Assembly: GCF_001463765.1 (NCBI RefSeq)
Contig: NZ_BBWK01000029.1
Coordinates: forward strand, 1-64,000
Reading direction: 5' to 3'
DNA from: Aureimonas sp. AU4
Lineage (GTDB): Bacteria > Pseudomonadota > Alphaproteobacteria > Rhizobiales > Rhizobiaceae
DNA length: 64,000 nt
Under the pieces are notes generated by a model. That model worked only from the letters and a program-made list of their open reading frames with translations. It ran no database searches and was not told the origin of the DNA. Positions 20,729 to 36,934 of this stretch are shown piece after piece; the first letter of the stretch is position 1; every line of letters begins with the position of its first letter. The translations under genes and the position numbers were made by a program.

Positions 20729-20811
20729 GGGGTCTGCTGCCCTTCCGCTGCGGGGCGCCCGTCCTGGGCACCGACCGGAACAGGGAACAGGTTGCCGGGA
20801 TCGCGGCGGTT

Positions 20812-21690
20812 TCAAGGTGTCGGTCCGTGTCGCGCGGCAGCCTCGAGCAGCGCGGCCGACAGGCTCGGGTCCAGCGTCATGTCCTCGCGGACGAGGCCAT
20901 GGTCCCAGCGGTGACGCTGCGGCGCATTCCAGGCCGGCGAGTCGACGATCGGGTAAAGGCAGACGCCCGCGACGGGAATGCGCGAGCGCTCCACCTCGGC
21001 CAGGACGTGGCGCAGCCAGTAGCCCTTGTCGTCGATCCCGCGCCAGCGGCGAGGATGGCCCCTGTGAAGGCCGGTCTCGGTGATCATCACCGGCTTGCCG
21101 TAGCGCGCGGCCACGTCGCGCAGCGAACGGGCGATGCTGCGCCGCAGGTCGTGCGGGTAGACGTTGATGCCGACGACATCGGCCGTGTCGGCCAGCGCAT
21201 GCGCGCCGATCTCGTGCGGCCGGTGCGCGGGCTCGGAGGTGACGAGACGCAGGCGGGGAAGCCGCTCGCGCAGGATCGCCAGGATGCCGCGCGCCTGCTC
21301 GACGACGAAGGCGGTACTCTCGCCGGGTACCATGCGCGGGTGGAAGCTCGTCTCGTTGAAGCAGCACCAGAAGGTCTGGTCGGGCGCGACCGCAAGAACC
21401 GCATCGGCCACCCGCCGTGCGTAGCCCTCGGGGTCGGCGTGGCGCCAGTAGTGGTTGAGGTCCCAGATCACCTCCATGTCCGCCTCGCGCGCGACGCGGA
21501 GGCGCGGCTCGACCGGTAGCCACGGGGGCAGGCCGTCGCGCACGGTTCGGATGCCGTGCACCCGGAGGATCGCGTAATGCGCGGCCATCCGTGTCTCGGG
21601 CAGATGGTCGGTGCCGGTCAGGAGGCAGAAGTTGCCCTGCCATTCCAGGCGGCCGCACTCGAAACCGGCCTGGAGAAAGGATCGGAACAC
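20812..21690 (-). CDS. Glycoside hydrolase-like protein, clan GH-A fold
   Basis: 292 residues from the GTG at 21690. It shows the TIM-barrel pattern of clan GH-A: an Asn-Glu acid/base pair in WCCFNETSFH (Glu113) and a nucleophile candidate Glu205 in KPVMITETGLH, with WDLNHYW at the third strand. There is no signal peptide, so it is probably cytoplasmic. Its opening (FRSFLQAGFE, HGIRTVRDGL) matches the C-terminal domain of the protein encoded 18 bp upstream, so the two are paralogues. Role: glycan trimming or transglycosylation in a biosynthetic cluster; the sugar is unknown. Confidence 0.75.
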   Translation of the reverse strand: MFRSFLQAGFECGRLEWQGNFCLLTGTDHLPETRMAAHYAILRVHGIRTVRDGLPPWLPVEPRLRVAREADMEVIWDLNHYWRHADPEGYARRVADAVLAVAPDQTFWCCFNETSFHPRMVPGESTAFVVEQARGILAILRERLPRLRLVTSEPAHRPHEIGAHALADTADVVGINVYPHDLRRSIARSLRDVAARYGKPVMITETGLHRGHPRRWRGIDDKGYWLRHVLAEVERSRIPVAGVCLYPIVDSPAWNAPQRHRWDHGLVREDMTLDPSLSAALLEAAARHGPTP

Positions 21691-21707
21691 CGGCGGCGCG
21701 GCGCCCG

Positions 21708-23957
21708 TCAGGCGCCGAACTCCATCGCGCGCTGGCGCTCAAGCTCGGCGGCGAGTGCGGGATCGGCGATGCGCCCGCGGGCGTCGGCGGAGAAGCGCAG
21801 CAGCCCGTTCGGACAGTAGCGCTCGTCGTCCCAGCCGGGATGGTCGAGAACGGGGTAGAGGCAAAGGCCCTCGACCGGCACGCCCCGGCGCATGGCGGCG
21901 CGCACCTCGCCCCCGACATAGGCGAGCCACTCCGCCCGCCGGTCGCCCTCGGTGCCCGTCTCGGCCACGAAGATCGGACGACCGTAGCGGGCATGGGTTT
22001 CCGTCAGGATGTCGCGGAAGGGCCTGTAGAGGGGATGGCCGATGTCGATCGGCGGCCCGCCGTGGATCCACTGGTTGTTGAAGTAGTAGTTGACCCCGAC
22101 GATATCGAGCAGAGCCTCGCGCCCGCCGATCTGCGGCCAGGCGCGGCCCGCCAGCATGTCCCAAGCCTGGAACTGCGCTTGCCGGTGTCCCTCGGCATGG
22201 GCCGCCTCGTGCGGCCGCGAGGGATCGGTGATGACGTTGATGACGGGGTCGGCATGCACGAAGCGCGCGCGCGGATCGACGCGCCAGATCGCCTCCATCG
22301 CGAGAATCGCGGCGCGCGAGAGCTGCACCTTCAGCTCGTGTGCGCGACCGTGCGCGAAGGGGTTGAGGTAGCCGGCGTCTCCCCCGCCCCAGGCCAGGAA
22401 GGAGATCTCGTTGACCGGCGCATAGAAGGGTACGCCCTCGGTCGCGGCCCCGATCACGCGCGCGGCCTCTGTGGCAAAGCGCGTGAAGCGCTCGACGAAT
22501 TCGGGGCGCCAGATGTCGATGTCGTCCGGCCAGCCGTAATGGAGGATGTCCCAGACGACCTGCGTGCCGGTTTCCTTTGCCGCCTGAAGCTGCGCCCGGA
22601 GGCTCCCCCAATCGTAGCGGCCGGGCTCGGGCTCCACGAGATGCCAGCGCAGGCCGTCGCGCACGGTGCGGATGCCGTGGCGCTGGAGCGCGGCGTAGTC
22701 CTCGCGCGCGAAGCGGTCGTGGTAGCTCGCCGCGATCATGTCGACGCGGCGCCGGTCGTGGGCGCGGCGGTGCGAGGAGGACTCGAAGCCGCCCTGGTGG
22801 AACGAGCGGAAGAGCTGCGGCCGGTGCGGCTCGGGCCGTGTCTCGCGCAGGACCGCCTCGATTAGCGCCTCCCACTGCGCCACGACCACCGGCACCGCGT
22901 AGTCGCGCTCGACCTTGGCCCGGAGCGCGGCGCCAAGGCGCGCGCGACGGGCGGGATCGTCGATCAGCGCCAGCATGGCCTGTGCGACGGCGGCCGGGTC
23001 CTCGTGCGGCACGAAGAGGCCGCTGACGCCGTCCTGGATCTGCTCGGTCGTGCCGTTGTCGGCGGTCGCGATCACGGCCAAACGAGCCGCGCCCGCTTCC
23101 GCGATCACATGCGGCATTCCCTCGCCGCGCGACAGCCAGACGAAGACGTCGAGCGCGGCCAGAAGCTCCGGCACGTCGGCGCGGTCGCCGAGAAAGCGTA
23201 CGGCGTCGCCCAGCCCGAGCGTGCGGGCGCGCTCGTAGAGGGCCTGCGCGTAATCGGGCAGAAAGGCGTCGGGACCGCCGATCACGAGGAAGCGCGCGTC
23301 GGGGCGCGTGCGCCGAACGAGGGCGGCGGCGTCCAGAAAGTCCTCGACGCGCTTCTTCGGGTCGAGCCGGCCGACCCAGCCGATCACAGGCGTCTTGGGC
23401 GCAAAGCCGAGCGCCCGGCGCATCGGCTCGCGGGCCGCGGCATCGAAGGGCGCGAGGTCGACCGTGGACGGGATCTCCAGCGCGCAGGTCTCGCGGCCCG
23501 GCATGCGCGAGGCGGCGGCTTCCCGGATCGAGCGGCAGACGCCGACATAGCGGCTGGTGAAGTGCTTGGGGCCGCCGAGCGCCTCGGAGACGAGCCCGCC
23601 GTGCTCGATCAGGGGCGGCCGCAGATGGAGCCGTTCCAACGCGGGATAGATGTCGGCGACGTTCTGGCAGGAGACCACGAGATCGTAGCCCGCGAGCTTG
23701 CCCGCGAGATAGTTGATCGTGTCCTCGAAGGAGAGCGTGTAGGGCGTGCGGTCGACGGACACGCCCAGCGCCTCCAGCTGCTGGTGCGTCTGCTCGGGCA
23801 TGCCCTCCTTGCGGAAGCACGCGACGACGTCGATGCGATAGCGCCGGGGATCGAGATGGCGCGCCAGATGGCGCACCTCGGTCTCCTCGCCGCCCACCAC
23901 CAGCCAGGCGAAGACGAACAGGATGCGGACCGGCTCCGGGCTGGCGTCGCTCGCCAT
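21708..23957 (-). CDS. Glycosyltransferase family 4 - GH-A hydrolase fusion
   Basis: 749 residues in one frame. Residues ~1-385 are a GT-B glycosyltransferase of the GT4 type (VFAWLVVGGEETEVRHLARH at the N-lobe; VIGWVGRLDPKKRVEDFLDA, and FVWLSRGEGMPHVIAEAGAA with the EX7E-like motif). From ~390 a GH-A barrel follows, with acid/base Glu517 in YAPVNEISFLAW and a nucleophile candidate near Glu665 in FVAETGTEGDRR. The ATG at 23957 overlaps the previous stop. Joining a transferase that builds a glycoside to a retaining-hydrolase fold is unusual. The GH part is a paralogue of the following gene's product. Confidence 0.8.
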   Translation of the reverse strand: MASDASPEPVRILFVFAWLVVGGEETEVRHLARHLDPRRYRIDVVACFRKEGMPEQTHQQLEALGVSVDRTPYTLSFEDTINYLAGKLAGYDLVVSCQNVADIYPALERLHLRPPLIEHGGLVSEALGGPKHFTSRYVGVCRSIREAAASRMPGRETCALEIPSTVDLAPFDAAAREPMRRALGFAPKTPVIGWVGRLDPKKRVEDFLDAAALVRRTRPDARFLVIGGPDAFLPDYAQALYERARTLGLGDAVRFLGDRADVPELLAALDVFVWLSRGEGMPHVIAEAGAARLAVIATADNGTTEQIQDGVSGLFVPHEDPAAVAQAMLALIDDPARRARLGAALRAKVERDYAVPVVVAQWEALIEAVLRETRPEPHRPQLFRSFHQGGFESSSHRRAHDRRRVDMIAASYHDRFAREDYAALQRHGIRTVRDGLRWHLVEPEPGRYDWGSLRAQLQAAKETGTQVVWDILHYGWPDDIDIWRPEFVERFTRFATEAARVIGAATEGVPFYAPVNEISFLAWGGGDAGYLNPFAHGRAHELKVQLSRAAILAMEAIWRVDPRARFVHADPVINVITDPSRPHEAAHAEGHRQAQFQAWDMLAGRAWPQIGGREALLDIVGVNYYFNNQWIHGGPPIDIGHPLYRPFRDILTETHARYGRPIFVAETGTEGDRRAEWLAYVGGEVRAAMRRGVPVEGLCLYPVLDHPGWDDERYCPNGLLRFSADARGRIADPALAAELERQRAMEFGA

Positions 23958-26900
23958 CAGTCGCGGACCTTGAACACGACCTGCAGGAAGTCCGGCCGCT
24001 CGTCCACGAGATGGCGCAGGAAGCGCGGCGCGTCCTCGAAGTCGACGACGTGGGTGATCATGTGCTCGGTGATGTCGCGTCCGCGCGCCTGGAGGAGGCC
24101 GATCGTCTCGGCTGCCAGCCGCCGGCGGTTCCACTCGAAGCCGAGACCGCGCGGCACGCGGTTGATCTGCGCGCAGCGGATCGCCAAGCCGTTGTGGTGG
24201 AACTCCTCGCCCAGGCGCAGCGGCTCCGCCCCGCCCTGGTAGAAAGCGAGATCGATGACGGTACCCTGCGGTCGCAGGGCCCGGAGCGCGGCATGGAGGC
24301 TGCGCGCGTCCGCGCGCGTCTGGAACACGAAGTCCGCGCCCCGGTCGCCGCCCCCGTGGTGCCAGTTCGCCTTGGCATGGTTCCAGGCTTGGTCCTCGTC
24401 CATCGCCGTGAAGCCCAGCGCCTCGATGCGCGCGCGCCGGAAGGGCGACGGGTCTGCGACGACGACCTCGCCGGCCCCCGCGCGCGCGGCGAACAGCGCC
24501 GTCAGGAGACCCACCACGCCGCCGCCGATGACCAGCACCGGACGGCCGGCGACCCCCTGCCCCAGCCGCTCGACGCGGCCGCCCGCCAGTTCCGCGTCGG
24601 CATGGAGAATGCCATTGGCGGCGATCGGGCCCATCTGCGCGACGTAGATGCCGAGCATCGGATCGACGCCCTCCGGCAGCTTCACCAGGAGATCGTGGAA
24701 CGGGTCGGCCGTGTGGCCGCTCTTGTGGGCGAAGGTCGAGGCGACGACCTCGCCGGCGCAAAAGCCGGGCGCGCGGGATTCTGCGACGCGCGCCACCTCC
24801 ATGTAGCCGAGGAACGGCACCGGAAAGTGCTGTCCCGCCTCGCCCGGCACGAAGACGCCGCGCCCGCCGTCCCAGCGCGAATGAAGATACGGGTTGGTAT
24901 TCTTGAAAAAGGTGAGCTCGGTGCCGGCGGAGAAGCCGGTATAGAGCGTGTCGAGGCGGACCTGCCCGTCGCCCGGAGGGCCTTCCTCGTACTGGAAATG
25001 GTAGGCCTCGCCCGGCCGCTCGATGCCGAGCGAGCGCACGTGCCGATGCCCCGGCGGCAGTTGTCCCGGCTCCGGCCGCGGCGGGAAGCGCAGCGGCGCG
25101 GGCGCCGTGCGGGGAGCCGTGTCGGGCTGGAGATGGACCACCTCGCCGGTGCGCGCCGACTGCACGACGGCCAGCGCCAGGCGGTGCGTCGCGAGCGCAT
25201 CGGCGTAGGGGCAGCGGATGCGGTTCTCGCCGCCGCGCACCGCGTCGATGAAGTCGCGGTCCTCGCGCCAGACCGGGTCGCCGTCGGCGCCGCGCACCGG
25301 GCGACCGCGCCCGACGTCCACCATGATGTCGCGGTCCGTCAGCTCGATCGCCAGCCGGTCGGCGAAGATGTGGAGGCCGACGCGGTGGTTCCAGCCGAGA
25401 AGGCAGGTCGAGGCGATGTTGGCGACGACGCCGCTCGCGAACGTCAGACTGGCCGTCGAGGTGGTCGGAACGTCGAGACCGGGAAAGGCCTCGCGATCGC
25501 GGTGCGCCGCGCGGCCGTAGACCTCGGTCACCTCGCCCACCAGGAAGCGGGCGAGGTCGAGAAGGTGCGTCGCCTGCTCCACCATCTGGCCGCCCGACTG
25601 GTCCTCGCGCCACCACCATTGCGGCGGGGGCGTCGAATCCAGCCAGTAGCCCGACAGGAGCTGCGCCGGGTTGTCGGCGAGCAGCGCTCGCGCCTCGTCC
25701 ACCGTGTCGAGATAGCGCCAGTGGTAGCCGACGGCCGTGACCAAGTTCTTGCGCGCCACCTCGGCGGCGATCGCCTCCGCGGTCGCGATATCGAGCGAGA
25801 CCGGCTTCTCCACAAAGAACGGTAGATCCCGTTCGATCGCGGCGCGCTCCGCCTCGCCGTGGGCGAAGGGCGGCACGCAGATATAGACGGCATCGGGCGC
25901 GCAGGCATCCATCATCGCGCCGGCCTCCGAGAAGGCGCGGGCCCCGAAGCGGGCGGCCGCCCCTTCCGCTCGGGCGAGATCGGTGTCGGCGAAGCCGACG
26001 ATCGCGACGTCCTCGAAGTGCTCGAGGATGCCGAGATGGCGGTGCGCGATGCCGCCGGCCCCGACGAAACCGATCCGGGTGGTCTTCATGCGTGCGTCCT
26101 GCGTTTCACGGTGGGGAGAAGCCGCCAGCCGGCGGTAGAGCGTGGCCGTCGCTCGCGCCATGGCAGAGGCGTGGAAGCGTCGGCGGAAGCGTTCCTGTGC
26201 GGCCTCGCCCGCCCGGGCGAGCGCGGCGCGGTCGGGCAGGCGCTGGAGAAGCGTGCGGGCGAGCGCGCCGGCGTTGCCGGGCTCGGCGAGCCAGCCGGAC
26301 ACGCCGTCCTCCACCGCCTCGCTCGTGCCGCCGATGCGCGTGGCGATCACCGGCAGCCCGGCGGCCATGGCCTCCAGCACCACCAGCGGCAGACCTTCGA
26401 AAAGCGAGGGCAGGACAAGCGCGTCGGCCGCAGCCATCAGGTCGGCGACGTCGTCACGGCTGCCGAGGAACCGCACGGCGTGGCAAAGGCCGAGCGCTCC
26501 GGCCCGTTGCTCAAGCGGGGCACGCAAGGGACCCTCGCCGACGACGAGACAGACGAGACCGGGGAGCTCTCCATGGATCAGTGCGAGCGCGTCAAGGAGA
26601 ACGGCATGGCCCTTCTGCTCGGTCAGGCGGGCGACCACGAGAAGAACCGTCGCATCGGGCGCGATCGCGAGAGCCCGACGGACCGCGTCGCGGCCTAGGG
26701 CGGCGTGTCGGGGGTGGACGCCGTTGGGGATCGCGTGGAGCCGGGTCGGATCGAGGCCGGCTGCCAGAAAGCTGTCGGCAGCCGCCTGCGACACGCAGAC
26801 CACGGCGTCCAGAGCGGACGCTTCCCGCCGGTGCCACGCGATCTGCTCGGGATCGGTCAGGACGAACGGGAGGTGCTCGGTGCGCAGGATCGTCGGAATA

Positions 26901-27220
26901 CCGGCTCGGCGGCCGGGCTCGGCCAGATCGTGCCCTTCCCAGGCAATACCGGCATGAACATGCAGGATGTCGGCGCGCCAACGCTCGAGCGTCTCGCGAA
27001 GCGAGGCGGGGTCGCCAAGCGGCAGATCCAACACGGCGAGGCCGGCGTCGGACGCCCGCGCGCGCAGTCCCGAGCGCGGGTCGGCGGCGATCGCGACGTC
27101 CCACTCCGCCGCGAGCTCCCGGCCGAGCGCGAGCATGTGCTCGCCGACGCCGGAGGGAACGAGGCTGTCGGTGGCCAGGATCAGGCGAAGGCGGCGCGGG
27201 CCCCGGCCGGCTCGGCTCAA
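23957..27220 (-). CDS. Three-domain fusion: GT4 glycosyltransferase - Gfo/Idh/MocA oxidoreductase - MDR dehydrogenase
   Basis: 1087 residues without an internal stop. Residues ~10-370: GT4 (SGVGEHMLALGRELAAEWDV, ARLTEQKGHAVLLDALALI, PSLFEGLPLVVLEAMAAGLP). Residues 378-705: Gfo/Idh/MocA (TTRIGFVGAGGIAHRHLGIL, then FFVEKPVSLD with the EKP catalytic Lys). Residues ~720-1087: zinc-type alcohol dehydrogenase (MDR) fold (GFSAGTELTFF, VLVIGGGVVGLLTALFAARA) without the usual Cys zinc ligands. The start is a TTG overlapping the preceding TGA; Met378 opens the middle domain and could be an internal start (AGGAC 7 bp upstream). Likely role: glycan assembly plus redox change of a nucleotide sugar. Confidence 0.8.
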   Translation of the reverse strand: MSRAGRGPRRLRLILATDSLVPSGVGEHMLALGRELAAEWDVAIAADPRSGLRARASDAGLAVLDLPLGDPASLRETLERWRADILHVHAGIAWEGHDLAEPGRRAGIPTILRTEHLPFVLTDPEQIAWHRREASALDAVVCVSQAAADSFLAAGLDPTRLHAIPNGVHPRHAALGRDAVRRALAIAPDATVLLVVARLTEQKGHAVLLDALALIHGELPGLVCLVVGEGPLRAPLEQRAGALGLCHAVRFLGSRDDVADLMAAADALVLPSLFEGLPLVVLEAMAAGLPVIATRIGGTSEAVEDGVSGWLAEPGNAGALARTLLQRLPDRAALARAGEAAQERFRRRFHASAMARATATLYRRLAASPHRETQDARMKTTRIGFVGAGGIAHRHLGILEHFEDVAIVGFADTDLARAEGAAARFGARAFSEAGAMMDACAPDAVYICVPPFAHGEAERAAIERDLPFFVEKPVSLDIATAEAIAAEVARKNLVTAVGYHWRYLDTVDEARALLADNPAQLLSGYWLDSTPPPQWWWREDQSGGQMVEQATHLLDLARFLVGEVTEVYGRAAHRDREAFPGLDVPTTSTASLTFASGVVANIASTCLLGWNHRVGLHIFADRLAIELTDRDIMVDVGRGRPVRGADGDPVWREDRDFIDAVRGGENRIRCPYADALATHRLALAVVQSARTGEVVHLQPDTAPRTAPAPLRFPPRPEPGQLPPGHRHVRSLGIERPGEAYHFQYEEGPPGDGQVRLDTLYTGFSAGTELTFFKNTNPYLHSRWDGGRGVFVPGEAGQHFPVPFLGYMEVARVAESRAPGFCAGEVVASTFAHKSGHTADPFHDLLVKLPEGVDPMLGIYVAQMGPIAANGILHADAELAGGRVERLGQGVAGRPVLVIGGGVVGLLTALFAARAGAGEVVVADPSPFRRARIEALGFTAMDEDQAWNHAKANWHHGGGDRGADFVFQTRADARSLHAALRALRPQGTVIDLAFYQGGAEPLRLGEEFHHNGLAIRCAQINRVPRGLGFEWNRRRLAAETIGLLQARGRDITEHMITHVVDFEDAPRFLRHLVDERPDFLQVVFKVRD

Positions 27221-29622
27221 GCCAAGGGTCCCGCGGTGGCACCCGACACGGCCGCGCCCGCCAGCGCCGCGCGCGGGCTCATCCGGCCATAGGTCGCCAG
27301 CGCCTGCGCCACCACCTGATCCATGTTGTAGTAGCGATAGGTGGCGAGGCGGCCGACGAAGCTGACGTCGGGGGTAGCATCGGCAAGCGCCTCGTAGCGG
27401 CGGTAGATCGCCCGCGTTTCCTCGCGCGGCACGGGATAGTACGGATCGCCCCGGTCCGAGGGAAACTCGTAGGAGATACTGGTGCGCGCGTGCCGCTGCC
27501 CCGTCAGGTGCTTGTACTCGGTGATGCGGGTCTGGGGCACCTCGGTGCCGGGATAGTTCACCACGGCCACGGGTTGGAACTCGGGTCGGTCGTGCGTCTC
27601 GTGCCGGAAGGCGAGGCTGCGATAGGGCAGCTCACCGAAGCGGTGGTCGAAGAACTCGTCCACCGGGCCGGTGAACACCGTATGGCCGACATCCACGGTG
27701 GCGCGAACCGAGCGGTAGTCCGTGCCGGTGCGCACGGTGATGTTGGGGTGATCGAGCATGCGCTCGAACATCGCCGTGTAGCCGTCGGCGGGCATCGCCT
27801 GGAAGCTGTCGAGGAAGTAGCGGTCGTCGGTGTTCGTGCGGGTCGGCACGCGGGCGGTGACGGAGCGGTCGAGCTGCGAGGGGTCGAGCCCCCATTGCTT
27901 GCGCGTGTAGCCGCGAAAGAAGGTCTCGTAGAGCTCGCGCCCGACCGCCGAGACCACGACGTCCTCGGCGGTGCGGATGTCGGCGACCGGCTCGGCCCGC
28001 GCTGCCAGAAAGGCGGCAGCCTCGGCGTCGGTGCGAAGGTCGAGGCCGTAGAGCCCGTTCAGCGTCGTGCGGTTGATCGGGATCGGCAGGAGCCGATCGC
28101 CGACATTGGCCAGGACGCGGTGCTCGTAGGGCCGCCACGTGGTGAAGCGCGAGAGGTAGTCGACGACCCGCTGGCTGTTGGTATGGAAGATGTGGGGTCC
28201 GTAGCGGTGGACGAGGATACCGGCCGCGTCGAGGTGATCGAAGGCGTTGCCGGCGATATGCGGGCGCCGGTCGACCACGAGAACGCGCTTGCCCGCGTCC
28301 GCCGCGAGCCGCTCGGCCAACACGGAGCCCGCAAAGCCCGCCCCGACCACGAGCGCGTCGAAGCGCTCCCGCCTCGTTCCCCCTTGGACGGCGGGGGCGA
28401 CCGGCGTTTCGTCGTTGGCGGCGTGCGCGGCGGCGATCCGGGCGGCCAGAACGGCGTCCGCAAGGATTGCCGCCATGCGCGCCTGCGTCCTGTCCCAGGA
28501 GATATCGGCCAGGGCGGCGTCGGCCTCGTTCCGCCACGCCCCGTCGCGCGGCAAGGCGAGGACGCTCTCGCAGGCCGCGACGAAACCTGCGGCATCCGCG
28601 GCGATGCGCACGCCCTCCATCGCGCCGTAATGGCGCACGACGTCGGCGATCGGCGTCGACACGACGGGACAGCCGCCCGCTAGGTACTCCGGCGTCTTGG
28701 TGGGGCTGATGAAGCGCGTCGCCTCGTTCAGGGCGAACGGCATCAGGGCGGCGTCCCAGCCCGCGAGGTAGGACGGCAGCTCGTCGTAGCTCTTGCCGCC
28801 GAGCCAGTGGATGTTGGCGCCGCGCGGCAGCTCCGCCGGGTCGATCTTGGCGACGGGCCCCAGCATCGCGAAGCTCCAGTCCGGCCGCATCGCCGCAATC
28901 TGGCGCAGGAGATCGAGGTCGAGCCGCTCGTCGATCACCCCGTAGAAGCCGAGCACCGGTCCGGCGAGGCCGGCCTGGTCGGCGGGCTGGACAAGGTTGG
29001 CGCGGCGCGCTTGTCCGAAATGCGCGGCGTCCACGGCAGAGGGAAAGGCGTGGATGTTGGCGTGGCGATGGCGCTTCGCCTCGTAGAGGCTCCAGCCGCC
29101 GGTGAACACGGCGTCCGCCCGCGCGATCAGCCGCTCCTCCATCTCCACGAGGCGCGGGTCCGCGAAGCGGAAGCCGGCCAGTTCGTCCATGCAGTCGTAG
29201 ACCACCGCCGCCGCCTCGACCGCGCCGGCGAAGCCGAACATCATCGGGGTGTAGAACCACAGGATCGGCGCGGCGGTGGTTGCGGTCTCGACCAGCATGG
29301 CGAGGAGCTGCGCCAGCCCCGCCTCCCGCTCCTTCACGCTCCACCAATGCGGCAGGCGCGGGCGCAGCGCGACGATGCCGTCATCGGGAAAGGGGTGAAA
29401 CTCCAGGAACGGCAGATGATGGTCGCAGGGAATGAATTCCTCGAAGACGAAGACCTTTCGGCCGCGCGCGAAGCGCCGCATCAGGTGCTGCGGGCGTTGG
29501 GTCACGAAGTCCCAGCGCAGATGCGAGAAGCAGATGATCGGAGCGTCGTCGTGCGCGGATTTCAGGGCGTCGCCGAGCCGCGCTCCCGCAGGGCCGGCAG
29601 CTGTCGTCGAATCCAGCGTCAT
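27217..29622 (-). CDS. glf: Glycosyltransferase - UDP-galactopyranose mutase fusion
   Basis: 801 residues. Residues ~25-400 are a GT-B glycosyltransferase (FSHLRWDFVTQRPQHLMRR, then FYGVIDERLDLDLL and SPTKTPEYLAGGCPVVSTPI). Residues ~420-795 are a UDP-galactopyranose mutase: FAD motif DALVVGAGFAGSVLAERLA, HRYGPHIFHTNSQRVVDYLS, KQWGLDPSQL, the substrate-binding RYFLDSFQAMPADGYTAMFE and the terminal ATYRYYNMDQVVAQAL. The mutase turns UDP-galactopyranose into UDP-galactofuranose using reduced flavin, so the fused transferase may use galactofuranose at once. It overlaps the next gene by 4 bp (TTGA). Gives the cluster a probable galactofuranose-containing product. Confidence 0.88.
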   Translation of the reverse strand: MTLDSTTAAGPAGARLGDALKSAHDDAPIICFSHLRWDFVTQRPQHLMRRFARGRKVFVFEEFIPCDHHLPFLEFHPFPDDGIVALRPRLPHWWSVKEREAGLAQLLAMLVETATTAAPILWFYTPMMFGFAGAVEAAAVVYDCMDELAGFRFADPRLVEMEERLIARADAVFTGGWSLYEAKRHRHANIHAFPSAVDAAHFGQARRANLVQPADQAGLAGPVLGFYGVIDERLDLDLLRQIAAMRPDWSFAMLGPVAKIDPAELPRGANIHWLGGKSYDELPSYLAGWDAALMPFALNEATRFISPTKTPEYLAGGCPVVSTPIADVVRHYGAMEGVRIAADAAGFVAACESVLALPRDGAWRNEADAALADISWDRTQARMAAILADAVLAARIAAAHAANDETPVAPAVQGGTRRERFDALVVGAGFAGSVLAERLAADAGKRVLVVDRRPHIAGNAFDHLDAAGILVHRYGPHIFHTNSQRVVDYLSRFTTWRPYEHRVLANVGDRLLPIPINRTTLNGLYGLDLRTDAEAAAFLAARAEPVADIRTAEDVVVSAVGRELYETFFRGYTRKQWGLDPSQLDRSVTARVPTRTNTDDRYFLDSFQAMPADGYTAMFERMLDHPNITVRTGTDYRSVRATVDVGHTVFTGPVDEFFDHRFGELPYRSLAFRHETHDRPEFQPVAVVNYPGTEVPQTRITEYKHLTGQRHARTSISYEFPSDRGDPYYPVPREETRAIYRRYEALADATPDVSFVGRLATYRYYNMDQVVAQALATYGRMSPRAALAGAAVSGATAGPLA

Positions 29623-29700
29623 GCCCGCCCCTCTCGTTCGTCACCCACGCACTAGCCGATCACAAGTCCCGGCGTGATGCGACTGAGTGAAGCCGGCGAA

Positions 29701-30876
29701 TTACCGTAGCAGCGACCGGAAACGCTCCACCGTATGAGGCCATGTCCAGCGCGATCGGGCGATCCCGCGCGGCCGAAATTCCCCCAGCGTGTCCAGCATC
29801 TCCACGAGCACCTCGCCGAAGCGCTCGGCCGGTGCGGTGCGGCCGGTCCCGGGCGTGACGAACTGGAGCCCGCAGGCCAGACGCTCGTTGGCCAGAACCG
29901 GCAGGCCGGCCAGCATGTACTCGGTGAGGATGGCAGGCGCCCCGTCGTCGACCCCGCAGACGACGCCGATGCGCGCCTGGTTCATGAGCCGGTTGACCTC
30001 GTCGAAAGGCACGCCCGGCGGGCCGACGAAGTCCACGTCGAGACCGCGCGCCGCCGCCTCGGCGCGCAGCGCCTCGCCCATCTCGCCGTAGCCGAAGACG
30101 CAGAGCGCCCTGAGGCGGCGCGGTGCCGTGGCCAAGGCGTCGAACAGGATGTCGTGGCGCTTGTAGGGCTGCGCAGCCGCGACGTAGACGACGTCGTACG
30201 GCTTCTCGCCGCCCAGCGGGCGGAACGTCTCGTCGTCGGCGAACTCCGGCCCGATCGGCATGATCGCCGTCGCCATGCCGGGATGACGCGCCTCGACCTC
30301 GTCGGACTGCCACCGGGCTCCGGTGAGAACGAGGTCGAAGTGACGGCTGACCTCGGGCGGCACGCGCAGCGCAGGCGCGTCGATGGAATTGTAGACTTTG
30401 AAGCTGTGCCGGCAGGCGTGGAGAATTTGTTCGTCCACCCCGAGGCCCAGGACCACGAGGATGTGCGGCGCGCCGACGGCCTCGATGAAACGCAGCATGT
30501 GCCGCGACGCGAAGGGTGCCTCCTCGCCATCGAGGCCGAACACGCGCCGCGCCAGGTGCGGACCGTCGCGCCGCACGGGCGGCACCGCCTCGGCGCGACC
30601 GTGGTGCCATATTTCCCCGTGCCGCACGATGCCTGCCCTGATGCAGGCCAGCGGCAGACGCTCCAGGTAGCCCCCGACCACGCGAACGGACTCATCGGCC
30701 ACCTCGTGCGCACGAGGTGGCGAGAACGGCTCGCGCGGGAGCCGCTCCGGCCATTCCGCCGCGCGCCGGTCCAGCGCCTGCGCATCGAAGCCGTGCGGCG
30801 GCCAGCCCTCCACGAGATCGCCGATCACGACGATGGAGGGATCCGCTGTGAGCACCGCCGCGTCGCCTTGATGCAT
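29701..30876 (-). CDS. Glycosyltransferase (GT-B type)
   Basis: 391 residues from the ATG at 30876 with GGGGGAG upstream. The C-lobe is readable: VVYVAAAQPYKRHDILFDAL, LCVFGYGEMGEALRAEAAAR, then VDFVGPPGVPFDEVNRLMNQ and DDGAPAILTEYMLAGLPVLA, the nucleotide-sugar site of GT1/GT4-like transferases. The N-lobe is divergent. No signal peptide or membrane segment. It is probably first in the leftward glycan operon, 78 bp before the GT-mutase gene. Donor and acceptor unknown. Confidence 0.78.
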   Translation of the reverse strand: MHQGDAAVLTADPSIVVIGDLVEGWPPHGFDAQALDRRAAEWPERLPREPFSPPRAHEVADESVRVVGGYLERLPLACIRAGIVRHGEIWHHGRAEAVPPVRRDGPHLARRVFGLDGEEAPFASRHMLRFIEAVGAPHILVVLGLGVDEQILHACRHSFKVYNSIDAPALRVPPEVSRHFDLVLTGARWQSDEVEARHPGMATAIMPIGPEFADDETFRPLGGEKPYDVVYVAAAQPYKRHDILFDALATAPRRLRALCVFGYGEMGEALRAEAAARGLDVDFVGPPGVPFDEVNRLMNQARIGVVCGVDDGAPAILTEYMLAGLPVLANERLACGLQFVTPGTGRTAPAERFGEVLVEMLDTLGEFRPRGIARSRWTWPHTVERFRSLLR

Positions 30877-31387: not shown

Positions 31388-32392
31388 TCAGACCGGCCCG
31401 CAGCTGTCTCCCAGTATCAAGGCGGGCTGGAAGACGACGTTCCGAGGGGCCGACGCGGGGCCGCGCTCTATTCGGTCGACCAGCAGCCGCAACGCCTCGT
31501 TCGTCATCTCCGAGATCGGGTGCTCCGTTCTCGTCAGGCGCGGACGCAGCCCCCCGATGCCGGGGATCGTGTCTGTGGAGGCGATCGATACGTCGTGGGG
31601 GCAGGAAAGATCGAGGTCCGCCAGCGCCCGCATGACACCAAGAGCCATGACACCGTTGGCGACGTAGATCGCGGTCGGACGGCTGCGACTGGCCAGAAGC
31701 TCCCGGGCGACGGAATAGGCGACATCCTCCCGGAAAGCTCCGTTGCGAATGTGGTCGGGCTCGGGCTTCAAACCGCGTGCCGCCATGCCCTCCAGAAGGC
31801 CCTCGAGGCGACCTTTGCCCGTTGTCAGGTGAAGCGGGCCGGTGATCGTCGCGATGCGGCGATGACCGAGATCGAGAAGATAGTTCGTGACCTGCCGGGC
31901 TGCGGAGACATTGTCGATCGTCACCGTATCGCAGCGATCGTCCGCGACGAGACGCCCGAACAGGACGGTCGGAATGCGACTGCCTTCGCCGTCCCGGCCG
32001 TCGAGGCGCAGGCCCGCGTCGATCGGAACCAGCATCAGGCCGTCGCACGACAACGCCCTTACCCGTGCCAGGATCCGGCGTTCGTTGTCCGGCTTCTCGT
32101 CGCTGTTGAACAGCACGAGCGAGTAGCCCCAGTCCGCCACTGCCGCCTCCGCCGCGCAGACGATGCGGGCGAAGAAGGGGTTGGTGAGATCGGATACGGC
32201 CAGCGCGATCAACTGGCTGCGACCGCGCTTCAGATTGCGCGCGGCGGACATCGGCGCGTAGTCGAGATCGCCGATCGCCGCGAGCACGCGCGCGCGCAGG
32301 ACGGGGCTGACATAGGCCGTGTCGTTGACCACCGCCGAAACGGTCGCCGTGGAGACGCCGGCAGCTTTTGCGACGTCGCGGATCGTTGCCAA
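31388..32392 (-). CDS. LacI-family transcriptional regulator
   Basis: 334 residues. The N-terminal HTH is MATIRDVAKAAGVSTATVSA with the hinge Leu-rich region RARVLAAIGDLDYAPMSAARN, followed by a periplasmic-binding-like effector domain (SQLIALAVSDLTNPFFARIV; TVLFGRLVADDRCDTVTIDN). It is divergent from a sugar importer operon, and an AAACGTTT palindrome lies 16 bp before its start, the classic core of LacI operators. It most likely represses the importer and itself until the sugar or a catabolite binds. Confidence 0.93.
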   Translation of the reverse strand: MATIRDVAKAAGVSTATVSAVVNDTAYVSPVLRARVLAAIGDLDYAPMSAARNLKRGRSQLIALAVSDLTNPFFARIVCAAEAAVADWGYSLVLFNSDEKPDNERRILARVRALSCDGLMLVPIDAGLRLDGRDGEGSRIPTVLFGRLVADDRCDTVTIDNVSAARQVTNYLLDLGHRRIATITGPLHLTTGKGRLEGLLEGMAARGLKPEPDHIRNGAFREDVAYSVARELLASRSRPTAIYVANGVMALGVMRALADLDLSCPHDVSIASTDTIPGIGGLRPRLTRTEHPISEMTNEALRLLVDRIERGPASAPRNVVFQPALILGDSCGPV

Positions 32393-32405
32393 TCAAACAC
32401 CGTAG

Positions 32406-32416
32406 CTAAACGTTTC
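32406..32416. promoter_or_regulatory. LacI-family operator candidate
   Basis: CTAAACGTTTC holds the perfect 8-bp palindrome AAACGTTT (32408-32415), the LacI/GalR consensus core with central CG. A weaker related site, CTAAACGCCGTTC, follows at about 32491, and GCAAAACGGTTCGC lies at 32514-32527, nearer the binding-protein gene. Two or three sites across the divergent region would allow looping. Confidence 0.6.
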
Positions 32417-32578
32417 ACAATAAGGCTGGACAGGCCGAGTAACGCCACACCGTTATCTGGCGTGCCTTGGACGTCAATAGCTCTTGCATTCTAAACGCCG
32501 TTCGGAAAACATGGCAAAACGGTTCGCTGACGTTCGCCGGGAGGGCGGGTTGCGTCGAGGCGGCCACGGGAGGGTCTG

Positions 32579-33523
32579 ATGAACGCTTCAACGATCGCCA
32601 TTATCGTATCGGGCCTCGCCGCGACGCTCGCGCCGGCCAACGCGCAGGACAAGCCGCTTCTCGGGATCGTCTCGATCTCCGCCACGGAAGCCAACAACGT
32701 GCGCTACATCGCCGGCGCGACGGCAGCCGCCGAAAAGGCCGGCTGGACGGTCTCGGTGATCGACGCGGCCGGCAGCGCCGACCAGGCCAATTCCGCGATC
32801 CAGAACTTCGCGGGTCGCGGCGCGGGCGCCATCATCGACATGGTCTTCCCCTATTCCTCGATCGGCGCGGGTCTCGCCGCGGCCAAGGACGCGAACATTC
32901 CCGTCGTGACCTGGGGCGGCGGTCTCGGCTCGTCTGTCGCGGCGACCAACGGATCGGGTGCGCCGATCGCGAAGCCGGTGATCGAGAAGATGATCGCCGA
33001 TCTCGGCGGACAGGGCAGCCTCCTCGCCCTCACCTACCGGACCGGCGAGGTCTGCCGGAACCGCGAGGTCCTTCTGGACGAGATGCTGAAGTCCCATCCC
33101 GGCATCACCGTCACCAAGAACGAGGTGCGCATCCCCGGCTACTTCGAGGACGGCGCGCAATACGCCAACGCCTGGCTCGCCTCCCATCCGGCGGGCGACG
33201 GCAACCTCGCGATCTGGGGATGCTGGGACGATCCGGCGATCGGCGCGATCGGCGCGCTGCGCCAGCAGAGCCGCGACGACGTGAAGGTCTACGGCGTCAA
33301 CGGCAACGCGCAGGCGATCGAGAACGTCCAGAACGGCCACATGACGGCGACCGCCTGGGAGGACAGCTACACCGAGGGCCAGCGCATGGTGGAGATGCTG
33401 GACGAAATCCGGAAGGCCGGTGCCGACTGGACGCCGAAGGCCGCCGAGGTGCCGGCGGTCCTCGTGACCAAGGACACCGTCGCGGACTTCGTGAAGCAGC
33501 ATCCCGAAGCGCTCGGCCAGTGA
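32579..33523 (+). CDS. Sugar ABC transporter substrate-binding protein (RbsB type)
   Basis: 314 residues. The signal peptide MNASTIAIIVSGLAATLAPA ends at ANAQ. The mature fold is periplasmic-binding-like I: LLGIVSISATEANNVRYIAG, AIIDMVFPYSSIGAGLAAAK, IWGCWDDPAIGAIGALRQQ, as in ribose/xylose-type proteins. GGGAGGG precedes the ATG. The stop overlaps the ATPase start (TGATG), and no hairpin separates them, unlike the other importers in this window. Bound sugar unknown. Confidence 0.9.
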   Translation: MNASTIAIIVSGLAATLAPANAQDKPLLGIVSISATEANNVRYIAGATAAAEKAGWTVSVIDAAGSADQANSAIQNFAGRGAGAIIDMVFPYSSIGAGLAAAKDANIPVVTWGGGLGSSVAATNGSGAPIAKPVIEKMIADLGGQGSLLALTYRTGEVCRNREVLLDEMLKSHPGITVTKNEVRIPGYFEDGAQYANAWLASHPAGDGNLAIWGCWDDPAIGAIGALRQQSRDDVKVYGVNGNAQAIENVQNGHMTATAWEDSYTEGQRMVEMLDEIRKAGADWTPKAAEVPAVLVTKDTVADFVKQHPEALGQ

Positions 33524-35094: not shown

Positions 35095-36086
35095 CCGACG
35101 CGACCGCCTCGAACCGGCGCCTTTCTCCCCGGGCCAAGTCCGCGCTCGGGCTGTTCGCGCGCTACGCGACCATCATCGGCCTCCTTGCCATGATCGCCGC
35201 GTTCGCGGTGCTGTCGCCACGCGCCTTTCCCACGCTCAGCAACTTCACCAACGTCCTGAACCAGGCCTCGCTGACCATGATCATCGCGGCCGGGCTGACG
35301 CTCGCCGTGGTGGTCGGCGAGCTCGACCTGTCGGTCGGCTTCGCGGCGAGCCTGCATGGCATTCTCGTCACCGGCCTCATCGTCTCGAACGGGTTGCCGA
35401 TTCCGCTCGCGATCCTGATCGTCCTTTGCGCGGGCGCCCTGATCGGTCTCGTCAACGGGCTGATCGTCACCAAGATCAAGGTCAACTCGGTGATCGCGAC
35501 GCTCGGCGTCGGCACGATCCTGACCGGCTTGGCCTTCGCCTATTCCGCCGGCGTGCCCATCGTCTCCGGCGTGCCGGAGGCGTTTCTCCAGCTGTCGCTC
35601 GGGCGCTGGCTCTTCGGCATCCCGAACAACATCGTCATCATGGCGCTGGTGGTCGGCGGCCTTTGGGTGCTGGTGGAGCGATCGGCGCTCGGCCAGGAGA
35701 TCCAGGCGGTCGGCGGCAACCCGGCGGCGGCGCGGCTGGCCGGCATCGACGTCGACCGCATCAAGATCCTCGGCTTCGTGATCTCGGGCGTCTGCGCCGC
35801 GCTGACCGGCATCCTCCTCGCCTCGCGCCTCGGCAGCGGCACGGCGAGCGCGGCCGACAGCTATCTCCTGACCGCGTTCGCAGCCGTGTTCCTCGGCTCA
35901 GCCACGCTGCGGGACGGCGAGTTCCACATCCTCGGCACCCTGATCGGGGCGCTGATCATCGCCTTCGGCTTCAACGGCCTCAACATCTTCGGCGCGCCCA
36001 CCTTCTCGCAATACGTCCTGCAGGGCGCCATTCTCATCCTGGCCGTCGGGCTCTCCAGCCTCGGCCGCTCGATCGCGGAAAGCTGA
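35091..36086 (+). CDS. Sugar ABC transporter permease (RbsC type)
   Basis: 331 residues with about 8-10 membrane segments. IIAAGLTLAVVVGELDLSVG, KVNSVIATLGVGTILTGLAF and the QAVGGNPAAARLAGIDVDRI cytoplasmic loop (ATPase contact) identify the CUT2 branch. ATG at 35091 overlaps the ATPase stop by 4 bp. It completes a binding protein-ATPase-permease set, followed after 5 bp by a lactonase-like hydrolase. The permease homodimerises in this family, so no second permease gene is expected. Confidence 0.93.
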   Translation: MTDATASNRRLSPRAKSALGLFARYATIIGLLAMIAAFAVLSPRAFPTLSNFTNVLNQASLTMIIAAGLTLAVVVGELDLSVGFAASLHGILVTGLIVSNGLPIPLAILIVLCAGALIGLVNGLIVTKIKVNSVIATLGVGTILTGLAFAYSAGVPIVSGVPEAFLQLSLGRWLFGIPNNIVIMALVVGGLWVLVERSALGQEIQAVGGNPAAARLAGIDVDRIKILGFVISGVCAALTGILLASRLGSGTASAADSYLLTAFAAVFLGSATLRDGEFHILGTLIGALIIAFGFNGLNIFGAPTFSQYVLQGAILILAVGLSSLGRSIAES

Positions 36087-36091
36087 CCCCC

Positions 36092-36934
36092 ATGCCCGAC
36101 ACCGATCAGCCGAACTGGGACGTCCATGTCATCGAGTTCGCCCGTTCCAAGGACCAACTCGTGGCCGGGCTCGTTCACGGGGCCTACGACGAGGGCACGG
36201 TGGACGTCCCCTTCTCCTTCGTGCTCGCCCGCAGCAACACCCACGTGGTGCTGGTGGATACCGGCTTCATGAAGGAGGGTTCGGGCGAGGCCATGAGCAC
36301 GAAGTTCGGCGTGCCCTTCTGGATCTCGCCGCTGCGCATGCTGGCGGCGCTCGGCGTCGCGCCCGGGGACGTCACCGACATCGTCCTCAGCCACGCCCAT
36401 TTCGACCACATGGGCTCGATCCAGGAGTATCCAGCGGCGCGGCTCCACATCCAGAAGTCCGAGCTCCTGTCGTGGATCGAGGCGCTCGCCCTGCCGCGCC
36501 AGTTCGGCTACCTCACCGAGATCATCAACCCCGACGACCTGCGCCACGCCTTCGACGCCTCGCTCGAGCATCGCCTGAATCTCGTGGAAGGCGACGTCGA
36601 CGATCTCCTGCCCGGCCTGCACCTCCGGCTCGGTGCCGGCCACACGGTCGGCCAGCAGTTCGCAATCGTCGAGACGGCGCGCGGCCGCCTCGTGATCTCG
36701 GGCGACTGCGTCTACTCCCAGCGCAACATCTGCGGCCACAACCACGACGGCGTCTACGTTCCGCTGGCCAATGCCACGGGCAGCGTCTGGGACCAGCTCA
36801 AGACCTTCGATCGCATCAACCGCGAAATCGGCGGCGACCTCGGCCGCCTCGTGATCCTGCACGACATGCAGCGCTGGCCCACCCTGCCGGTGGTCGAAGA
36901 GATCGAGGGCTTTCGCATCGTGAAGGCGTCCTGA
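36092..36934 (+). CDS. Metallo-beta-lactamase-fold hydrolase (lactonase-like)
   Basis: 280 residues. The zinc motif is LSHAHFDHMGSIQEY (HxHxDH), with later ligands in GAGHTVGQQF and ISGDCVYS. The overall plan, with TGFMKEGSGEAMST and HIQKSELLSWIEA, is that of N-acyl-homoserine-lactone-lactonase-type proteins, which cleave lactone rings using two metal ions. No signal peptide. It starts 5 bp after the permease gene and belongs to the same operon, so its natural substrate is more likely a sugar lactone or ester made from the imported sugar than a quorum signal; this is inference. Confidence 0.8.
   Translation: MPDTDQPNWDVHVIEFARSKDQLVAGLVHGAYDEGTVDVPFSFVLARSNTHVVLVDTGFMKEGSGEAMSTKFGVPFWISPLRMLAALGVAPGDVTDIVLSHAHFDHMGSIQEYPAARLHIQKSELLSWIEALALPRQFGYLTEIINPDDLRHAFDASLEHRLNLVEGDVDDLLPGLHLRLGAGHTVGQQFAIVETARGRLVISGDCVYSQRNICGHNHDGVYVPLANATGSVWDQLKTFDRINREIGGDLGRLVILHDMQRWPTLPVVEEIEGFRIVKAS

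Follow-up and report, generated by a model that had tools for sequence, protein, structure and literature searches.

What does a cassette of fused glycan enzymes make, and what does a glycosyltransferase (GT) do with two different oxidoreductase domains on its own chain? These questions are raised by five genes in a 64,000-nucleotide stretch of Aureimonas sp. AU4 (contig NZ_BBWK01000029.1, positions 1 to 64,000; hereafter the window), one of which encodes a 1087-residue protein carrying a GT4, a Gfo/Idh/MocA and an MDR domain (the trimodular protein). The cassette is ordinary in its parts and unusual in its assembly. Conserved fusions, a conserved internal start signal, the family membership of the domains and co-occurrence with UDP-galactopyranose mutase (UGM) are established here by direct observation; we infer the chemistry, the product, the role of the glycoside hydrolase (GH) and the location. 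Our favoured explanation, held tentatively and somewhat short of an even chance, is that the cassette may build a short galactose-derived glycan or glycoside, that the trimodular chain may rework C3 of a galactosyl residue, and that its gene may give two products.

A scan of a genome collection returned 52 loci. Counts rest on the 31 that bear the cassette (L021-L051), with L001-L007 left out as repeats of the same genus and two cases split over two frames (L051 for GTa, the first cassette gene, and L035 for the GT4-GH fusion) retained. The trimodular protein occupies a single open frame in 30 of these 31 loci (Aureimonas, Rhizobium, Agrobacterium, Sinorhizobium), and at least 80% of it is covered at one place in 56 plasmid records; Sinorhizobium medicae WSM419 is among the carriers of the gene. 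Together these rule out an assembly or frameshift error, or chance, as the source of the 1087-residue frame. The exception, Devosia enhydra (L049), carries GT4, Gfo/Idh and MDR in the same order but in separate frames, the GT4 stop overlapping the Gfo ATG (ATGA). The initial annotation had proposed this fusion and its long frame, and both hold; the separate genes in relatives that it thought would undo the proposal occur in one relative, Devosia. The fusion is not restricted to the window's genome: Rhizobiales share it widely, and of 21 genomes in the genus, the window's own included, 7 have the trimodular locus. The cassette is common to many plant-associated bacteria and is often plasmid-borne.

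Cassette genes were called from open reading frames (ORFs) and Pfam/NCBIfam profile matches, giving the following features:

29701..30876, minus strand: GTa, a GT-B glycosyltransferase of 391 aa and the first cassette gene (PF00534/PF13692)
27217..29622, minus strand: GT-UGM fusion of 801 aa, a TuaH-like glycosyltransferase joined to UDP-galactopyranose mutase (PF13692, PF03275, TIGR00031)
23957..27220, minus strand: trimodular GT4/Gfo-Idh-MocA/MDR protein of 1087 aa (Pfam domains)
26097..26101, minus strand: CAGGA, the Shine-Dalgarno (SD)-like sequence serving the internal ATG, at -12 to -8
26087..26089, minus strand: conserved internal ATG (Met378), at which translation is predicted to start a second time and yield a free Gfo-MDR protein of 710 aa
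21708..23957, minus strand: GT4-GH fusion of 749 aa, a GT4 joined to a divergent GH1-fold glycosidase
20812..21690, minus strand: lone GH of 292 aa, a shortened paralogue of the GH domain

GTa begins with an ATG that has GGGGGAGA upstream. Where three genes had been said to overlap by 4 bp, the TTG start codon of the trimodular gene lies inside the GT-UGM stop (TTGA, a 4 bp overlap), the trimodular and GT4-GH genes share 1 bp (TGATG), and the first in-frame ATG/GTG/TTG of the lone GH follows the GT4-GH stop by 17 bp. The other fusions are conserved to varying degrees: a GTa homologue is found in 30 of 31 loci, the GT4-GH fusion lies in one frame in 30 of 31, and GT and UGM are fused in 19 of 31. 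The lone GH recurs in only two loci besides the window (L021, L022) and so is not a stable part of the cassette.

Within the trimodular protein, GT4 spans residues 1-367, Gfo-Idh-MocA 379-690 and the zinc-less MDR ~722-1087. PF00534 scores its N-terminal part at 138.3 bits and that of GT4-GH at 114.8 (cut-off 26.4). The GT4 motif is EX7E; E275 and E283 are invariant in all 31 trimodular sequences (the window and 30 loci), and GT4-GH of the window has the motif at 279-287, with E279 and E287 present. An AlphaFold model of the whole trimodular chain is of moderate quality (pLDDT 75.3, pTM 0.42); confidence is low in the linkers at 368-378 and 707-718, and weak stretches also occur within Gfo and MDR.

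The linker between GT4 and Gfo contains a second candidate start. Across the 31 fused sequences, we sought SD-like 4-mers at -15 to -5. The Met378 codon is ATG in 31 of 31 and is preceded by such a 4-mer in 30 (the exception being L021), compared with 64 of 568 other in-frame methionines and a rate of 12.7% at random codons. A list of 5-mers gave 30 of 31 at Met378 against 6 of 568, but it was picked after the sites had been seen, and the case is built on the generic 4-mers. Because the p-values take no account of relatedness among the sequences, they overstate significance. GGA or GGG occurs before Met378 in three codon phases (16, 11 and 4 sequences), and coding therefore does not account for the SD-like site. 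Mean SD pairing energy is -4.5 kcal/mol at the internal start and -2.5 for controls. In all 31 sequences the full-length start overlaps the preceding gene, and in 3 of them an SD-like 4-mer stands before it; the start taken is the candidate nearest the previous stop, a choice that favours overlap. Two features count against the internal site: its pairing is moderate, reaching -5 kcal/mol or lower in 1 of 31 sequences as against 18% of control methionines, and another methionine column carries SD-like 4-mers in 18 of 20. The signal is nonetheless strong, and we expect one gene to yield a full-length chain, translationally coupled to the upstream gene, together with a free Gfo-MDR protein started independently from the internal ATG at its own ribosome site. 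By length, these two products would measure about 117 and 76 kDa.

Could the full-length chain be incidental, with Devosia-like overlapping genes fused by a frame change and the working products being GT4 and a Gfo-MDR protein from the internal start? The conserved internal ribosome site and the ATGA overlap in Devosia would suit such a history. Yet in the window and 30 of 31 loci the GT4 frame runs on without a stop, and the GT4-Gfo linker of the 31 fused sequences comes in six lengths, every one in frame, which drift would not preserve; we regard this history as decidedly improbable. The initial annotation had considered that an internal start at 26089 might give the only product: its start signal is conserved, but with nothing to end the GT4 frame it can hardly account for the only product.

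What sugar does the cassette handle? The UGM domain of GT-UGM exceeds the TIGR00031 cut-off (367.6 bits against 303.75), as expected of a UDP-galactopyranose mutase (glf), while the GT half matches the TuaH model at 85.9 bits, below its cut-off of 550. Unlike a free-standing glf, this domain sits behind the TuaH-like GT in 19 of 31 loci; in the other 12, UGM is found elsewhere in the genome (12 of 12). A UGM search matched 18 of 20 entries; the two left unmatched are lone plasmid records whose chromosomes were not part of the search. For one of these, the Aureimonas AU20 plasmid, genome G013 has the cassette at the same place and UGM on another contig. UGM is present in every cassette-bearing genome searched, though not on the two plasmid records searched alone.

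The association is also seen against background. In the window's genus, UGM occurs in 7 of 7 cassette genomes and 3 of 14 others, the cassette's own domain accounting for 6 of the 7. A second genus has the GH part in 14 of 39 genomes, with UGM in 14 of 14 of those and 13 of 25 others (p=0.0013); with the 12 genomes whose GT is unfused taken alone, p=0.0028. In a class sample of 385 genomes, UGM is present in 31 overall; the GH profile (E 1e-10) finds five genomes, our own included, all with UGM. GH and UGM matches lie 129-163 bp apart in three of the other four, and in the fourth the GH matches are partial, one of them ~230 bp from UGM. The galactofuranose link put forward in the initial annotation is supported by this co-occurrence (12/12, and 14/14 vs 13/25).

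Plasmid regions extend the picture. Thirteen regions with GH were hand-picked among 60 listed of 141 records, and glf is annotated within about 2 kb of GH in seven. Nine have GH identity of at least 37%: six carry glf, two a GH-GT-FAD oxidoreductase fusion, and in one (Paracoccus) no glf is annotated. Among the four distant ones (24-27% GH identity), glf is present in one. The Paracoccus cassette, with no UGM within 21 kb, weighs against the favoured explanation. On the Pantoea (L078:9992-13720) and Acinetobacter (L083:9992-13720) plasmids the fusion is a 1242-aa GH-GT-FAD oxidoreductase in which a PRK07208-type flavoprotein replaces UGM.

GTs and UGM are also common in exopolysaccharide and lipopolysaccharide (LPS) loci, and the cassette might be an ordinary locus for exopolysaccharide or an LPS side chain, with its polymerase and exporter encoded at another site. 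No polymerase or flippase is annotated in 11 plasmid regions (gene tables incomplete), and the five window cassette proteins show no clear membrane segment as judged by hydropathy averages: the top 19-residue values run from 0.95 to 2.15, the highest falling within the MDR Rossmann region (residue 894). The immediate neighbours of four Rhizobiales cassettes include no gene annotated as polymerase, flippase or exporter; two of the four have an EamA transporter a few kb further downstream. In Azospirillum and Skermanella, an ABC-exporter-type gene directly follows GH (L079:11137-12903 and L080:11213-13006) and is a possible exporter of the product, a point in favour of such a locus. On balance we consider an ordinary locus of this kind rather unlikely. 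The earlier remark that no exporter is seen fits the genes adjoining the window cassette (annotation did not cover the whole window) but not Azospirillum and Skermanella.

We next turn to the redox part. Gfo/Idh/MocA membership is clear (PF01408, 81.9 bits, cut-off 24), and the EKP motif of that family is invariant in 31 of 31 sequences (E471-K472-P473). A profile of the MDR domain scores four E. coli MDRs in the order YcjQ (75.3 bits), YdjJ (44.6), Tdh (38.4) and YdjL (25.0), and the Gfo profile scores YcjS at 57.4. GHE, the MDR zinc motif, is absent by alignment from YcjQ, the fusion and its free-standing relatives, and present in Tdh, YdjJ and YdjL. Among these four the MDR domain is nearest YcjQ, and it appears to be a zinc-less domain of YcjQ type. 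RefSeq names YcjQ a D-guloside 3-dehydrogenase and YcjS a D-glucoside 3-dehydrogenase; one passage (PMC11543891 / PMC11239390) instead words YcjQ as a D-glucoside dehydrogenase. The E. coli system, which converts gulosides to glucosides, resembles the trimodular protein in pairing an MDR lacking GHE with a Gfo/Idh protein, both parts being detectably homologous. It differs in that YcjQ, YcjR and YcjS are separate genes of a breakdown operon that includes the C4 epimerase YcjR, whereas here the pair is fused to GT4. No YcjR-type C4 epimerase is matched among the five window cassette proteins or, with linked genes considered, in four annotated Rhizobiales cassettes.

The nearest free-standing Gfo relatives (44-50% identity) adjoin an MDR gene (36-37%) in L052-L055, from Trueperaceae and Chloroflexi. 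Selected ORFs were scanned around L052-L056. L052 lies with GH42, GH4 and galactose-1-phosphate uridylyltransferase, and L055 with GH4, galactokinase and sugar-transport components. Gulose is the C3 epimer of galactose; this relationship, the closeness to YcjQ and the two free relatives in galactose operons lead us to propose that the fused pair may carry out C3 redox chemistry or epimerisation on a galactosyl residue. Redox modification of a sugar, as initially suggested, is plausible. Several observations pull the other way. Identity to YcjQ and YcjS is only 25-26%, and a sequence search of solved structures places the MDR domain closest to alcohol and threonine dehydrogenases (best E 1.4e-8). 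The free pairs are separate genes ordered MDR then Gfo, opposite to the fusion. No galactose context was seen among the selected ORFs of L053 (where a nucleoside hydrolase is present), L054 or L056, beyond a weak GHMP-kinase match in L054, and the annotation of the Azospirillum and Skermanella cassette regions contains no Gfo gene. In the excerpts of PMC11543891 / PMC11239390, D3dgpA oxidised glucosides and not kaempferol galactosides.

The same pair might instead act before transfer, on a nucleotide or free sugar, with the GT4 fusion merely channelling the donor that it makes. Many Gfo/Idh enzymes do use nucleoside diphosphate (NDP)-sugars or free sugars, and the trimodular protein matches NF040723, UDP-GlcNAc 3-dehydrogenase (E 4.3e-17). 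That match, at 62.6 bits, is far from the cut-off of 450, and all trimodular NCBIfam matches are below their cut-offs among the 25 of 55 listed. The closest of the four E. coli MDRs is the guloside dehydrogenase, and the best match of the Gfo domain among solved structures by sequence, DgpA (E 8.4e-16), acts on glycosides; a donor-making pair is, in our view, unlikely.

The GH part is a divergent GH1 fold: a GH1-like barrel with both catalytic glutamates (Glu517 in NEIS, Glu666 in ETG). GH1 belongs to clan GH-A, and the GH-A label of the initial annotation stands. Pfam GH1 is not matched at E 0.001, the only match of this part being PF02449 at 2.2e-4, and we therefore write GH1-fold and not GH1. 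It departs from GH1 beta-glucosidases in being shorter (a 372 aa model), with 14-21% identity among the matches listed, and in being joined to GT4 in 30 of 31 loci. The lone GH, 35% identical to the GH domain, has no Pfam match and retains NETS at 112 and ETG at 205. A GH1-fold domain fused to an acyl-CoA-dehydrogenase/SfnB-like domain also occurs on a Deinococcus plasmid, near a GT and glf (L077:9773-12286). In that region, Gfo/Idh/MocA and sugar phosphate isomerase/epimerase genes lie ~1-3 kb beyond glf (L077:16434-18455).

Taken as a pathway, the favoured explanation would run as follows. UGM would supply UDP-galactofuranose, the GT-B enzymes would assemble the chain, and the GT4 part of the trimodular protein would transfer one sugar. 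The Gfo-MDR part, a fused YcjS/YcjQ-like pair, would oxidise and then re-reduce C3 of the acceptor galactosyl residue, leaving a 3-epimerised (gulo) or a 3-keto sugar, while the GH1-fold domain would trim or transfer glycosyl units during assembly, much as the initial annotation supposed. In its strongest variant, which we think improbable as a whole, a GT fused to its own two-dehydrogenase epimerase would add a galactosyl residue and then invert its C3 on the acceptor by way of a 3-keto form, giving gulose-type residues without NDP-gulose, and the internal ribosome site would add free epimerase for mixed complexes.

Regulation and neighbouring genes were also surveyed. Of 30 loci, 7 have an EcfG-type promoter motif, GGAAC-N16-20-GTT, ahead of GTa (L025, L030, L031, L032, L038, L044 and L046, five of them named Rhizobium); Markov shuffles averaged 0.88, and 0 of 500 reached 7. 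General-stress control by EcfG is not claimed for the window genome, where no motif stands upstream of GTa and the one match within the window falls on the plus strand, at 20784. Such control had been suggested by stress genes that adjoin several cassettes. Next to the window cassette, at 31388-33523, are a gene for a LacI-type regulator and a divergent one for a sugar-binding protein. A link to sugar import through these neighbours was dropped, as they are absent from the four other Rhizobiales cassettes read. Further out, the C-terminal half of a 502-aa frame (35426-36931) contains a domain of the metallo-beta-lactamase fold (PF00753).

If the favoured explanation is correct, an enzyme pair known from sugar breakdown would have a biosynthetic role, and a fused machine would edit C3 of a sugar after its transfer. 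The trimodular gene would also be a clear-cut instance of a single gene that specifies both a fusion and, through a conserved internal start, one of its parts. The trio of GT, UGM and GH1-fold protein recurs among plasmids of Alphaproteobacteria, Betaproteobacteria and Deinococcus. No description of it appeared in literature searches judged by titles and abstract openings, and it may open galactofuranose glycans of these bacteria to experimental test.
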